Both the position numbers and the translations under genes were made by a program. From positions 1 through 38,961 of the forward strand of contig JAFGAW010000097.1 of assembly GCA_016933475.1 (NCBI GenBank): 38,961 nt of DNA, read 5' to 3'. Of this stretch, positions 21,351 through 27,251 are shown piece by piece. The stretch's first letter is position 1; every line of letters starts with the position of its first letter. The stretch comes from Thermoleophilia bacterium (GTDB lineage Bacteria > Actinomycetota > Thermoleophilia > UBA2241). The notes under the pieces are model-generated. The model saw only the letters and a program-made list of their open reading frames with translations. It had not been told where the DNA came from and searched no databases.

Positions 21351-22126
21351 TGACGCGCTTCGTCCTCGCCTCGGGTAACCGCCATAAGCTGGGCGAGTTC
21401 GCCGCCATCCTGGCGCCGCACGAGGTGATCGCCATGCCGCGCGAGGTGGAGCTGCCGCCGGAGGGGACGGAGTCGTTCGCCGCCAACGCCCGCGACAAGG
21501 CGCGCGCCCTGGCGGCGGCCGTCGCCGCCGACCCGGTGCTCGCGGCGCGTCTTGCCGGCGAGCCGCGGTCGGCGTCCGCCGTCTCCGCCGGCGGGTCGGC
21601 CGGCGAGCCGGCGGACCGTGCCGCGGCGTCGGCGGCTCATGCCGCTCGGGTCGCGGACCCGGCGGGCGACCTCGTCTTCATCGCCGACGACTCCGGCCTC
21701 GAGGTCGAGGCTCTCGGTTGGGCGCCGGGTGTGACGAGCGCCCGCTATGCGGGCGTCGACGGGCCCGGCGCCGACGCGGCCAACGTGGTGCGCCTCCTGG
21801 GCGAGCTCGACGGCGTCGCCGGCCCACTCGCCCGCCGGGCGCGCTTCGTCTGCGCGCTTGTCGCGGTCACGCCACGGATGGGAGAATACGAGGCGACGGG
21901 ATACTGGTGGGGCGCCATCGCCGAGGCGCCGCGCGGAGAGGGCGGGTTCGGGTACGACCCCGTCTTCGTCCCGGAGGGGTCAGACCTCACTGTGGCCCAG
22001 TGGCCGCAGGAGCAGAAGGACCAGGCCAGCCACCGCGCCCTGGCCGGGACGGCCCTCCTCGAACGCTTGCGCCAGGAGGGACTGCTCGATGAGCCAGACC
22101 GGGAGCGACGGCCCCAGGCCGGCTGA
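21350..22126 (+). CDS. rdgB: RdgB/HAM1 non-canonical purine NTP pyrophosphatase
   Basis: FVLASGNRHKLGEFAAIL; FIADDSGLEVEALGWAPGVTSARYAG; EGGFGYDPVFVPEG; start overlaps rph stop (TGATG). Confidence 0.93.
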   Translation: MTRFVLASGNRHKLGEFAAILAPHEVIAMPREVELPPEGTESFAANARDKARALAAAVAADPVLAARLAGEPRSASAVSAGGSAGEPADRAAASAAHAARVADPAGDLVFIADDSGLEVEALGWAPGVTSARYAGVDGPGADAANVVRLLGELDGVAGPLARRARFVCALVAVTPRMGEYEATGYWWGAIAEAPRGEGGFGYDPVFVPEGSDLTVAQWPQEQKDQASHRALAGTALLERLRQEGLLDEPDRERRPQAG

Positions 22127-23144
22127 CACTCCGGCCGCGCCGGCGATGGGCGCCGGCGTGAGCCCGCCCGGCAACGCCGCCACACCGCCGCCGGCCGACG
22201 CTCTCGCGCCGGCGATCGCCGACATCCCCGTCTCATCGGCCCACGCCGACGTCCACAACCACCCGCTGAAGGCGCGCGCTGCGGCGGTCTCGATCGCCTC
22301 CAACGCGACGCTCATCGTCTTCAAGCTGATCGTCGGCGTCCTCTCGGGCTCCATCGCGATCATCTCCGAGGCGCTGCACTCGGCGTCCGATCTCGTGGCG
22401 GCGGTGATCGCCTTCTGGTCGGTGCGCAGGGCCGCTGTCCCCGCCGACGCCCGCCACCCGTACGGCCACGAGAAGGTGGAGAACGTCTCCGGCGTCGTCG
22501 AGGCGCTGCTCATCATCGCCGCCGCCGGCGTGATCGTCTACGAGGCGGCCCAGCGCCTCTTCGGAGGACCCGAGCTGGACCACGTGTGGCTCGGCATCGC
22601 CGTCATGGCCGTGTCGGGCGCCGTCAACCTGGTCGTGTCGCTCCGCGTGCTCTACCCGGTGGCGCGGCGCACCGATTCGGCAGCCCTCGAGGCCGACGCC
22701 GCGCACCTGCTGACCGATGTCTACACCTCGTTCGGCGTCGCCGGCGGCCTGCTTCTCGTCCAGCTCACCGGCCGGACCGTCTTCGACCCGCTCGTGGCGA
22801 TCGTGGTGGCCGTCGTGATCATTCGCACGGGGTACGTGCTGGTCATCAAGTCGACGCGGGTGCTGCTCGACGAGACACTGACCGACGGCGAGCTCGAGGA
22901 GATCCGGCGCTGCGTGCGCGACCACCGCGGCGACATCATCTCCGGCTACCACAAGCTGCGCGCCCGGCGGGCCGGCAGTCGCCGCCACATCGACCTGCAC
23001 ATCACGGTCGACGAGCGGCTCAACGTGGCGGAGGCCCACGACGTGGCCGAGCACATCGCCGGCGACATCCGCGCCTGCATCCCCAATGCCGACGTGCTCG
23101 TGCACATCGAGCCGCAGTCGCACGAGCGCGAGGACGGCTCCTGA
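22089..23144 (+). CDS. Cation diffusion facilitator family transporter
   Basis: SNATLIVFKLIVGVLSGSIAIISEALHSASDLVAAVIAFWSVRRAAVPADARHPYGHEKVENVSGVVEALLI; cytoplasmic dimerisation domain RRHIDLHITVDERLNVAEAHDVAEHI. Confidence 0.94.
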   Translation: MSQTGSDGPRPADTPAAPAMGAGVSPPGNAATPPPADALAPAIADIPVSSAHADVHNHPLKARAAAVSIASNATLIVFKLIVGVLSGSIAIISEALHSASDLVAAVIAFWSVRRAAVPADARHPYGHEKVENVSGVVEALLIIAAAGVIVYEAAQRLFGGPELDHVWLGIAVMAVSGAVNLVVSLRVLYPVARRTDSAALEADAAHLLTDVYTSFGVAGGLLLVQLTGRTVFDPLVAIVVAVVIIRTGYVLVIKSTRVLLDETLTDGELEEIRRCVRDHRGDIISGYHKLRARRAGSRRHIDLHITVDERLNVAEAHDVAEHIAGDIRACIPNADVLVHIEPQSHEREDGS

Positions 23145-23264: not shown

Positions 23265-24533
23265 TCAGAAGAGGATGGGCGAGAGCAGCAGCACGGCGCT
23301 CATCCCGATGAGCGCCACGGTGAAGGTCCAGGCGATCGCGTTCGCGACGCGCCCGTTCGCGTGGGTGCCCATCACCGCCGGGTCGTTGATCAGCTTCAGG
23401 GTGAACAACAGGATCACCGGCAGCAGCACGCCGTTGAGCACCTGGGCCGAGACGATCACCCGGATGAGGGGCAGCCCGGGGATCGAGGCGATGAGCGCGG
23501 GCACGAAGATCAGGAAGGTGATGATGCCGTTGAAGACCGGCGCCTCGCGGAAGCCCGTGTCGAGACCCGACTCGAAGCCGAAGGCCTCGCAGACGACGTA
23601 GGCGGTGGCGAGCGGGAGGACGCCGGCGGCGAGGATCGACACCGCCAGCAGGCCGAGGCCGAAGAGGTACCGGGCCACCTCGCCGAGGAGCGGCTCGAGG
23701 GCCATCGCCGCCTCTTCGGCGGACTCGATGACGATGCCCTTGTCGTAGAGCGTCGCCGCGCAGGCGAGGACGATGAAGAAGTCGATCATCGTCATGAAGA
23801 CCGAGCCGGCGAAGATCTCGTACTTCGTGTACGCGTACTGCCGCCAGGAGACCTTCTTGTCGACCACGGCGGCCTGGATGAAGAACTGCCCCCACGGCGT
23901 CAGCGTCGTGCCGACCGCGGCGATCACGGTGAAGAGCCAGAGGCTCTCGGAGCTGAGGCTCGGGTGCGTCGCGCCGTGCAGGGCCGCCGACCAGTCGGGC
24001 TCGGCGAGGATCCCGGCGGCGATGTAGGTCACGAGGACGAAGCCGAGACCGAGCAGCACGCGCTCGGTCTTGCGGTAGGTGCCGCGCGTGACGAGCAGCC
24101 AGATCAGGACCGAGAGCACCGGGACCCCGACGTACGGCGGCACCCCGAAGAGGCTGCCGGCGGCGGCGATGCCCGAGAACTCGGCCACCGTGGTGCCGAA
24201 GTTGGCGACCACCGCGGTGAGGATCGCGAGGGCGGTGACCTTGATGCTGAAGTTCTCGCGGATGAGGGCGGCGAGCCCGCGCCCGGTGACGACGCCGACG
24301 CGGGCGTTCATCTCCTGGACGACGGCGAGCACCGGAGTGATGAGGATCAGCACCCAGATGAGGCTGTAGCCGTAGCGCGCGCCGATCACCGACCACGTCG
24401 TGATGCCGCCGGCGTCGTTGCCGGCGTTGGCGGCGATGAACCCGGGCCCCACGACGCTGAGGAAGATGAGCAGCCGGGTACGGCCGATGCGGCCGAAGGT
24501 GCGCCGCCGGAGCTTCTCGCGACCTGTCGTCAT
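23265..24533 (-). CDS. Nramp (SLC11) family divalent metal transporter, candidate Nramp-related Mg2+ transporter (NRMT)
   Basis: FLSVVGPGFIAANAGNDAGGITTWSVIGARYGYSLIWVLI...QEMNARVGVVTGRGLAALIRENF; operonic with MgtE_N/CBS gene behind an M-box. Confidence 0.88.
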   Translation of the reverse strand: MTTGREKLRRRTFGRIGRTRLLIFLSVVGPGFIAANAGNDAGGITTWSVIGARYGYSLIWVLILITPVLAVVQEMNARVGVVTGRGLAALIRENFSIKVTALAILTAVVANFGTTVAEFSGIAAAGSLFGVPPYVGVPVLSVLIWLLVTRGTYRKTERVLLGLGFVLVTYIAAGILAEPDWSAALHGATHPSLSSESLWLFTVIAAVGTTLTPWGQFFIQAAVVDKKVSWRQYAYTKYEIFAGSVFMTMIDFFIVLACAATLYDKGIVIESAEEAAMALEPLLGEVARYLFGLGLLAVSILAAGVLPLATAYVVCEAFGFESGLDTGFREAPVFNGIITFLIFVPALIASIPGLPLIRVIVSAQVLNGVLLPVILLFTLKLINDPAVMGTHANGRVANAIAWTFTVALIGMSAVLLLSPILF

Positions 24534-24537
24534 CGTC

Positions 24538-25788
24538 TCAGCGGAAGAGGCGCGGCAGCCGCTTCTTCCAGGCCAGAGGAAGGACGAGGTCGATGGCGTC
24601 GTCGACGGTGATGATGCCGTGGAGGACGTTGTCGTCGTCGACCACGGGGAGGGCGAGGAGGTTGTACTTGGCGATCGCCTGCGTGATCTCCTCCTCGCCC
24701 GCGGAGGTGTGCACCGAGACCGGGTTCTCGGTCATGAAGTCGCGCACCTTGCGCTCGGGCGGCGTCATCAGCAGGTCGCGCAGGCTGAAGACGCCACGCA
24801 GGTGCTCGCCGCGGTCGAGGACGTAGATGTAGTAGACGGTCTCCACGTCCTCGGCCTGGCTCCGCAGGCTCTCGGCCGCCTCGGCGGCGGTGTCGTCGAG
24901 GCGCACCCAGGCGAAGTCGGGGGTCATGATGCCGCCGGCCGAGTCCTCCGGGTAGCTCAGGAGCTCCCGCATGTCCTCGGCGTCCTCCTTCTCCATCATC
25001 GCGATGAGGTGGGCGCGGCGCTCGTCGGGCAGATCGGCCAGGAGGTCGGCGGCGTCGTCCGGCGACATGCTGGCGAGCAGCTCGCTGGCGCGGTCGTCGG
25101 ACATGTCGAGCAGCAGCGACGTCTGGTAGGACGGGTGGAGCTCCTCGAGGGTGTCGGCGGCGATCTCGTCTTTGAGCGCGTCGATCACGGCGGCGCGCTC
25201 CTCGGGCGAGAGCTCGTGCACGATGTCGGCGATGTCGGCGGGGTGGAGGAGCTCGATCTTGGTGCGCGGCACGGCGAGGCGCACGCCGCTGTCGTCGGTC
25301 TCGCCGAGGTCGAGCACGCGCCAGTCGATGAGGTGCGGCTTGGGTTGCTGGCGGCCCTTCGTGAGGCGGTCGCTGACGCGGCCGAGCCCGACGCGGCGCA
25401 GGATCGCGCCGCTCGAGATGTCGACCGCGACGGCGTGCACGAAGGGCCCCGTGCGCACGAGCTGGATGTCGTTGACGCGGATGACCTTGTGTCCCTCGGT
25501 GTCGACGAGCTGCTTGTCGAGGAACTGCTGCGAGAGGCGCAGCTCGTCGTCGCCGAGCTCGCGCTCTTCGAGGTCCGAGCCGCTCACCTTGAGCATCGTC
25601 ATCGTCTCCTCGAAGGACTCGACGGTGCTCCACTCGGCGGCGACCAGACGGCCGCGGCGCTTGACGAGCAGGGCGGTGACGCGTGGGTAGTTGGGGCGGA
25701 CGGTGACGACCAGGTCCTGGAGGGTGCCCGCCGGTTTGGCGTCGCGGTCGCGGACGGGGCTGCCGAGCAGCTTGCTCAGGAAGAACAC
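24538..25788 (-). CDS. PRC-barrel / MgtE_N / CBS-domain protein without transporter domain
   Basis: LHPADIADIVHELSPEERAAVIDALKDEIAADTLEELHP...LADLPDERRAHLIAMMEKEDAEDMRELLSYPEDSAGGIMTPDF (MgtE_N), then two CBS motifs; N-term PRC-like; GTG start. Confidence 0.88.
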   Translation of the reverse strand: MFFLSKLLGSPVRDRDAKPAGTLQDLVVTVRPNYPRVTALLVKRRGRLVAAEWSTVESFEETMTMLKVSGSDLEERELGDDELRLSQQFLDKQLVDTEGHKVIRVNDIQLVRTGPFVHAVAVDISSGAILRRVGLGRVSDRLTKGRQQPKPHLIDWRVLDLGETDDSGVRLAVPRTKIELLHPADIADIVHELSPEERAAVIDALKDEIAADTLEELHPSYQTSLLLDMSDDRASELLASMSPDDAADLLADLPDERRAHLIAMMEKEDAEDMRELLSYPEDSAGGIMTPDFAWVRLDDTAAEAAESLRSQAEDVETVYYIYVLDRGEHLRGVFSLRDLLMTPPERKVRDFMTENPVSVHTSAGEEEITQAIAKYNLLALPVVDDDNVLHGIITVDDAIDLVLPLAWKKRLPRLFR

Positions 25789-25827
25789 GGTGTCACCTCC
25801 TCCTTGCCGGTCGCCGTCGGGCGACGA

Positions 25828-25854
25828 CAAAAGAACCTCTCCTCGGGAGAGGCT
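25828..25854 (-). terminator. Rho-independent terminator of the M-box expression platform
   Basis: Minus strand agcctctcc-cga-ggagaggtt followed by cttttg. Confidence 0.85.
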
Positions 25855-25878
25855 CCGCGCGCGCAAGCAGGATGGGCG

Positions 25879-26042
25879 ATCCTCACTCGTCCACGAGCTT
25901 TGGCACAGCACACCGTAGAGGTCAGGACCTCAGCCGTCTTGGGCAAAACCTTGAGCCGGTAGTGCCTGTTCTACCCGTGGGCGTCTCTCGACGTTTCCGG
26001 GCAACGGCCTTTTTGTGTGCCGGAGCCTCACCTAACGAGGAT
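25879..26042 (-). ncRNA. M-box (ykoK leader) Mg2+ riboswitch
   Basis: Minus strand atcctcGTTAGGTGAGGCTCCggcacacaaaaaggccGTTGCCCggaAACgtcgagaGACGCCcacGGGTagAACAG...CTACGGTGTGCTGTGCCAAAGCTCgtggacGAGtgaggat; matches conserved M-box blocks; P1 atcctc/gaggat. Confidence 0.93.
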
Positions 26043-26064
26043 TGCGCCTGTGTGACGCGTTCGA

Positions 26065-26288: not shown

Positions 26289-27251
26289 ATCATCATCACC
26301 GTGACAACGAACGCGGCCGTCGACAAGACGCTGACCGTGCCCAACTTCCAGTGCGGCTTCCGTCACCGTGCGAGCGAGAGCCTCACGCTGCCGGGCGGCA
26401 AGGGCGTCAACATCGCCCGCGCGCTCAAGAACCTCGAGCAGCCGGTCGTCGCCACCGGGCTCATCGGCGGGCGCGCCGGCCAGCAGATCGTCGGCGGGCT
26501 CGCGCGCGAGAACATCCTCAGCGACTTCGTGCGCATCGCCGCCGAGTCGCGTACCTCGACCGCGGTCGTCGACCCCACCACGATGACCCAGACCGAGATC
26601 ATCGAGTACGGGCCGGTGGTCACCGCTGCCGAGCTCAAGACGCTGCTCGACAAGGTCGAGTACCTCGCCAAGGGCGTCAACGCCGTCGTGCTCGCCGGCT
26701 CGCTGCCGCGCAAGGTGCCCGAGGACTTCTACGCCACGGTCATGCAGCGCCTGCGCCCGCAGCGCTGCTACGTCGTCCTCGACAGCGCCGGCGAGCCGCT
26801 GCGCCGCGGCGTCCGCGGCCGGCCGCACCTCGTCACCCCCAACGTGCGCGAGGCCGAAGACCTCGTCGGCCACGAGTTCCACGACGAACAGGACATGGTC
26901 GACGCCACCGGCATGATCTGCGAGATGGGCGCCCGCAACGTCATCATCAAGACCCCGCACGGCTGCGTCGCGCGCTTCACCCGCGGCCGCCGGGCGCACG
27001 TCTACCGCGCGAGCATCCAGCCCCTCGAGCGCGTGCTCAGCACGGTAGGCTCGGGCGACGCCTTCCTCGCGGGCTTCCTCTGCGCACGGTTCGAGAAGCG
27101 CGAGCTGCCCGACGCCCTGCGCCTCGCCCTCGCGACGGGCAGCGCGAACACCCTGCGGTACGGCGCCGGCGTGCTCGACGCCGCCGACGTCAAGCGCCTG
27201 TTCGACACGGCCGAGGCGACCGAGCTCGAAGAGGCACCCGCCCCGCGTTGA
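26289..27251 (+). CDS. 1-phosphofructokinase family (PfkB-type) hexose kinase
   Basis: IIITVTTNAAVDKTLTVPNF...LPGGKGVNIARALKNL; VLSTVGSGDAFLAGFL; no ATG at conserved N-terminus, so start uncertain (26289 ATC or 26301 GTG). Confidence 0.9.
   Translation: MIITVTTNAAVDKTLTVPNFQCGFRHRASESLTLPGGKGVNIARALKNLEQPVVATGLIGGRAGQQIVGGLARENILSDFVRIAAESRTSTAVVDPTTMTQTEIIEYGPVVTAAELKTLLDKVEYLAKGVNAVVLAGSLPRKVPEDFYATVMQRLRPQRCYVVLDSAGEPLRRGVRGRPHLVTPNVREAEDLVGHEFHDEQDMVDATGMICEMGARNVIIKTPHGCVARFTRGRRAHVYRASIQPLERVLSTVGSGDAFLAGFLCARFEKRELPDALRLALATGSANTLRYGAGVLDAADVKRLFDTAEATELEEAPAPR

Follow-up and report, generated by a model that had tools for sequence, protein, structure and literature searches.

An M-box riboswitch precedes a detached MgtE-like sensor and an NRMT-type transporter in a Thermoleophilia-related bacterium: a candidate magnesium uptake operon

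How are SLC11-type magnesium transporters (NRMTs) shut off in cells replete with Mg2+? A decade-old proposal assigns a part in this to a detached MgtE sensor. Shin et al. 2014 described M-boxes upstream of NrmT genes, observed that a gene for an MgtE cytosolic domain accompanies most members, and proposed a cytoplasmic feedback or chaperone role for the fragment (PMC4072509). The locus studied here lies in a contig of 38,961 nucleotides (JAFGAW010000097.1 of assembly GCA_016933475.1), hereafter the window, and combines the same elements. Neither its arrangement nor the feedback idea is new, both being found in Shin et al. 2014 (PMC4072509), and the contribution of the present analysis is comparative evidence from related genomes that strengthens the feedback proposal. 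Its closest known counterparts are NrmT/NRMT loci such as Ca_c0685 of Clostridium acetobutylicum (PMC4072509), where an M-box, an MgtE cytosolic-domain homologue and an NRMT also occur together. In Ca_c0685 two separate genes make up the fragment, whereas the locus studied here encodes one sensor with an N-terminal PRC part. It further differs from Ca_c0685-type loci (PMC4072509) in its Thermoleophilia-related host and in the candidate antiterminator pairing described below.

The gene pair and its leader

On the minus strand, the M-box is followed by a terminator-like hairpin, a Shine-Dalgarno sequence, the 416-aa sensor ORF and the 422-aa transporter ORF (Table 1). Both ORFs lie where the original prediction had placed them, and the 4 bp that it counted between sensor stop and transporter start was confirmed. 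An alternative sensor start at GTG 25911 (457 aa) was rejected: it would begin within the riboswitch, and the GTG at 25788 has a strong Shine-Dalgarno sequence in front of it. With a PfkB-family kinase gene beginning divergently at 26301 on one side and the convergent end of a cation-efflux (CDF) family gene on the other, the pair looks like a self-contained operon; a sigma-70 promoter scan of the locus gave no match. The CDF gene (window 21747-23144, plus strand) ends 120 bp from the NRMT gene, and its true start is probably internal. MAGs represent both the host, an uncultured actinobacterium whose assembly is 80% complete, and its close relatives.

Table 1. Features of the sensor/NRMT locus in window coordinates
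Feature	Position	Strand	Evidence
SLC11-type magnesium transporter (NRMT), predicted, 422 aa, ATG	23265..24533	-	Pfam, best solved relative, motifs, tree
TM6 substrate motif T209-T-L-T212 (TxxA/T replacing A/CxxM)	23898..23909	-	Motif alignment; signature per PMC8806188
TM1 substrate motif D40-A-G-G43 (DxxG replacing DPGN)	24405..24416	-	Motif alignment; signature per PMC8806188
Soluble sensor: PRC-barrel part, MgtE_N superhelix and CBS pair, 416 aa, GTG	24538..25788	-	Domain matches, AlphaFold, Foldseek
C-terminal tail LPLAWKKRLPRLFR past CBS2, at MgtE plug-helix position; candidate docking segment	24541..24582	-	Motif conservation
Sensor-gene Shine-Dalgarno AAGGAGGAGG, 7 nt upstream of GTG	25796..25805	-	Sequence
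Intrinsic-terminator-like hairpin and T-rich tail, separating aptamer from sensor start	25832..25856	-	Hairpin scan
M-box (ykoK leader) magnesium riboswitch aptamer	25875..26046	-	RF00380
Candidate antiterminator strand GAGGCTCCG, 5' part of aptamer	26021..26029	-	Exact complement of CGGAGCCTC

The aptamer lies outside the interval 23265-25788 given in the original prediction and matches RF00380 over model positions 1-169 of 169 (148.9 bits, gathering score 44, E 4.3e-34). Each of the nine named close relatives also has an M-box, at 145-152 bits, ahead of its sensor gene, and a chance match was rejected on this conservation together with the E-value of 4e-34. The terminator-like hairpin (one observed, 0.4 expected in shuffles) has the exact stem CCTCTCC/GGAGAGG and the tail TTCTTTTG; with the full-length RF00380 match, it supports the M-box control that had been claimed for the pair.

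A Mg2+-dependent terminator/antiterminator mechanism is established for other M-boxes. In the window, the terminator's 5' arm contains CGGAGCCTC, exactly complementary to GAGGCTCCG in the aptamer, and a complement exists for the leader segment GAGGCTCC; complementarity of 8-10 nt is present in eight of the nine relatives. An OFF switch responding to Mg2+ would be laid out in this way, and such switching is predicted here. The window has a clear T-rich tail downstream of the hairpin, as do about half of the relatives; some lack one. For those without it, a Rho-dependent or translational step is possible, as has been reported for a mycobacterial M-box (PMC12810186).

The transporter and its soluble partner

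The transporter matches the Nramp family (PF01566, 1e-87), and its best solved relative is EleNRMT of Eggerthella lenta (7qia, 1.4e-100), a proven Mg2+ transporter (PMC8806188); the next, at 6.7e-28, is a canonical Nramp. The NRMT-defining signature of Ramanadane et al. 2022, DxxG in TM1 and TxxA/T in TM6 (PMC8806188), is present as DAGG and TTLT, and is shared with EleNRMT along with 42.6% identity and a common clade. DAGG had been read correctly in the original prediction as standing at the DPGN position of canonical Nramps, and the paired TM6 change, TTLTPW for ATVMPH, is added here. DPGN/MPH proteins from the same phylum and the references DraNramp and BfraNramp differ in this signature. 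The SLC11 phylogeny proposed as a check was built with FastTree and placed the protein with the NRMTs and not among the Mn/Fe Nramps: it groups with EleNRMT, separate from the DPGN Nramps (support 0.97), and forms a clade with its nine relatives (support 1.0), while the inner branch uniting the two subclades is weak (0.33). A canonical Mn/Fe Nramp (MntH; DPGN and MPH) was rejected on the motifs, DAGG and TPW, and on the tree. The substrate is probably Mg2+, judging from motifs and phylogeny. No CorA, MgtE TM domain (PF01769) or MgtA was detected above cut-off in the host MAG, so that, within an assembly that is 80% complete, the NRMT gene is the sole Mg2+ importer recognised.

The upstream gene encodes the soluble PRC-barrel/MgtE_N/CBS protein that had been predicted, with matches to an N-terminal PRC-barrel (1e-5), MgtE_N (1e-27) and two CBS domains (2e-19). 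Its AlphaFold model (38-sequence alignment, pLDDT 80.8, pTM 0.53) contains two N-terminal beta regions, a helical MgtE_N superhelix and the CBS pair, and MgtE cytosolic domains ranked first in a Foldseek search with this model (rmsd 1.6-2.7, about 230-244 columns). The cytosolic domain of Thermus thermophilus MgtE (TtMgtE; 2yvy/2zy9) shares the MgtE_N and CBS fold (rmsd about 1.6-1.7) and the Mg2+ ligands between N and CBS domains, but the sensor has an extra N-terminal PRC part and lacks the plug-helix ligands and the TM pore. While the MgtE_N and CBS parts of an MgtE channel are present, the C-terminal TM pore with its conserved Asp is absent, and the chain ends 14 residues past CBS2. The short tail, modelled with low confidence, carries the motif [LIVM]PxxW[KR], which occurs in 29 of the 38 soluble sensors examined.

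Ligand positions were assigned by alignment to TtMgtE and from the mutational data in PMC5882242. Acidic residues occupy the positions of TtMgtE E59, D91, D95, D247 and D250 (D212, D244, D248, D397 and D400 in the sensor), and N376 stands in place of D226. The sites Mg4 (D91/D247), Mg6 (D95) and Mg7 (E59 as D) are therefore kept and Mg5 is half kept (D250 retained, D226 as N), so that most of the acidic residues that bind Mg2+ between the N and CBS domains of MgtE are retained in the sequence. Mutation of the E59, D91, D95, D247 and D250 sites impairs closure of MgtE (PMC5882242). The plug-helix ligands E258/D259 are missing, which fits a protein that has neither plug nor pore. The pattern recurs in relatives, and among 32 soluble NRMT-adjacent sensors, D247 is conserved in all, D91 in 29 and D95 in 30. 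The equivalents of Y170, R187 and D188, which contact nucleotide in MgtE (PMC5529423), are kept in the window sensor and variable in other sensors.

Linkage and relatives of the sensor module across the phylum

A survey of 249 genomes of the phylum identified 67 NRMT loci in 65 genomes, with a cut near 4e-53, to which two matches linked to an M-box were added, that is partly a judgement; of the excluded matches just below it, the part that was read has TM1 motifs of the DPSG or DPAG type. A PRC-type sensor lies within 2.5 kb of the NRMT gene in 49 of the 67 loci and is co-directional in 48 of these, and the pairing is thus widespread in the phylum. For 15 further loci the sensor is tabulated as lying elsewhere in the genome, two of which (G204, G038) in fact adjoin a split or partial sensor, and for the last three the genome survey found none. 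Overall, 62 of 65 NRMT genomes contain a PRC-type sensor compared with 24 of 183 others, a contrast for which the Fisher value is descriptive only, as the genomes are related. With the window included, 17 of the 25 M-boxes found are beside an NRMT gene, 15 of them together with a PRC-type sensor. The order M-box, sensor, NRMT recurs in all nine named close relatives, which were chosen by protein similarity and comprise Thermoleophilia and other actinobacterial MAGs.

Variants of this layout occur. The sensor is downstream of the NRMT gene in G035, G095 and G138. The M-box of G222 (L079:3274-3442(+), G222:C132) sits between the two genes, leaving only the NRMT under its control. A PRC-type TM protein is encoded away from the NRMT gene in eleven genomes. 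One sensor is followed by two tandem NRMT genes at L012:6265-8408(+), the second cut by the contig end, and a P-type ATPase gene is located directly upstream of an NRMT gene at G069:C123:6757-9111(-). Several long open frames hinted at NRMT fusions; the one of 902 aa in G097 was rejected as a fusion, since the frames of sensor and NRMT differ. M-boxes also occur upstream of ileS in L094 (G097:C26:5549-5717(-)) and probably in L093 (G151:C1:1492294-1492463), resembling the mycobacterial rv1535-type M-box (PMC12810186).

Near-relatives of EleNRMT (83-95% identical; L062, L064, L066, L067 and L069 in G055, G042, G143, G067 and G175) have a PRC/MgtE_N/CBS neighbour as well, but one of 450-455 aa with a single C-terminal TM helix, where the window's group has none. 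No M-box was found in their genomes, and the EleNRMT paper (PMC8806188) does not use the terms CBS, operon or M-box. In 32 PRC-type sensors (about 600-640 aa; L053-L074, L087, L096-L110), the C-terminal domain aligns to the TM domain of MgtE; of two scanned with Pfam, one matched PF01769. The pore Asp, D432 in TtMgtE, whose loss abolishes conduction (PMC5882242), is present in none of these 32 proteins compared with 11 of 11 canonical MgtEs. In these proteins the sensor has outlived the channel, and the MgtE pore may have been lost while the sensor survived.

The same module is joined to an unrelated carrier in two genomes of different families, where a single 1317-aa ORF combines PRC/MgtE_N/CBS with a complete MgtA-type Mg2+ P-type ATPase (L076:778-4731(-), G243:C8; L077:1090-5046(-), G199:C77; TIGR01524 at 1099 bits in the one scanned). 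As in the window, the module accompanies a Mg2+ transporter, but the linkage is covalent and the carrier family unrelated. Both ORFs are intact across 1317 codons, though from fragmented assemblies; no second fusion was found in the two genomes covered from the family of G243, the other copy (G199) belonging to another family. A literature search at title and abstract level found no report of such a fusion. Of the PRC-type sensors located away from NRMT genes, all five inspected are followed by a gene for a DUF1003 membrane protein (L129, L131, L132, L133, L134), and L131 has a CorA gene upstream as well. The host genome itself encodes a second MgtE_N/CBS protein (L075:4615-5877(-), G000:C11:18620-19855), 41% identical to the sensor, whose neighbours are a xanthine/uracil-type permease and a TerC gene and include no Nramp. 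Taken together, the pore-dead relatives, the MgtA fusion and the DUF1003 pairing suggest that the module may regulate several Mg2+ carriers.

A model of feedback on magnesium uptake

The combined results point to a bicistronic Mg2+-uptake operon under two feedback loops, a model that we regard as moderately probable as a whole. The riboswitch loop on the Mg2+ importer is well supported. At high cytoplasmic Mg2+ the M-box aptamer would close and keep its own 5' strand, allowing the downstream terminator to form, and at low Mg2+ GAGGCUCC would pair with the 5' arm of the terminator and the operon would be transcribed. The second gene product would then import Mg2+ via its DxxG/TxxT site. The first, a soluble homologue of the cytosolic gate of MgtE built from MgtE_N, the CBS pair and the N-terminal PRC part, most likely binds Mg2+ where its N and CBS domains meet, a site that in this lineage may also accept an adenine nucleotide. 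At high Mg2+ it would dock at the cytoplasmic face of the NRMT, perhaps via its conserved C-terminal LPxxWK tail, and slow the transporter; both the contact and the negative sign of this second loop are predictions. The original proposal, an MgtE sensory module working in trans on an SLC11 carrier, is plausible, and the conserved adjacency, the conserved Mg2+ ligands, the pore-dead MgtE relatives and the MgtA fusion support it indirectly. Counted against the model are the missing E258/D259, the replacement of D226 by N, the separation of PRC-type TM protein and NRMT gene in eleven genomes, and the rescue results of Shin et al. 2014 described below. The sensor may have partners besides the NRMT, given the host paralogue without an Nramp neighbour and the copies paired with DUF1003.

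These last observations also bear on the idea that sensor and carrier merely share a regulon, the sensor acting elsewhere, on another membrane partner, as a chaperone or as a Mg2+ buffer, without touching the NRMT. The permease and TerC neighbours of the paralogue and the DUF1003 partners of the orphan sensors fit this, as does the finding of Shin et al. 2014, who also raised the chaperone role, that NrmT is functional without the MgtE-like fragment (PMC4072509). Against it stand the NRMT adjacency, seen at 49 of the 67 loci and in many families, and an in-frame fusion of the module to another Mg2+ transporter, and we consider it unlikely, though not negligible. Transport without the fragment counts against a different proposal, that the sensor is a positive subunit, stabilising or activating the NRMT when Mg2+ is low instead of inhibiting it when Mg2+ is high. 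A single M-box before both genes would have sensor and carrier made together at low Mg2+, and the pore-dead membrane-anchored versions resemble accessory subunits, but the homologous MgtE domains close their channel upon Mg2+ binding (PMC5882242), and the chance that the sensor is an activator appears rather small.

The carrier could alternatively be mainly a Mn2+ transporter with a sensor that responds to Mn2+. The NrmT of Acidobacterium capsulatum, which adjoins an MgtE-like fragment, behaved as a Mn2+ carrier, fully rescuing a Mn2+ transport defect and a Mg2+ defect only at low-millimolar Mg2+ (PMC4072509). That locus, however, lacks the M-box found in the window, and the complete NRMT signature and a host genome without another recognised Mg2+ importer leave a Mn2+ system very improbable here. 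The A. capsulatum pair was also the subject of that study's only co-expression test, in which the fragment gave no better Mg2+ rescue and only rescue was scored (PMC4072509); an inhibitor acting at high Mg2+ would stay silent in such an assay. No later paper testing the MgtE-fragment partner of NrmT was found in the literature searched.

For the question of how NRMT importers are turned off, the near-relatives of the structurally solved EleNRMT, with the sensor gene adjoining the transporter gene, are a convenient test system for the predicted inhibition by the sensor. A broader reading, which we offer tentatively and as possible rather than probable, is that PRC/MgtE_N/CBS is a portable trans-acting Mg2+ gate that arose through loss of the MgtE pore with the sensor kept and has been re-used on unrelated Mg2+ carriers: beside NRMTs as a soluble, one-TM (Eggerthella type) or pore-dead MgtE form, in cis as a fusion to MgtA, and beside DUF1003. 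If this is true, DUF1003 proteins would be candidate components of Mg2+ homeostasis.
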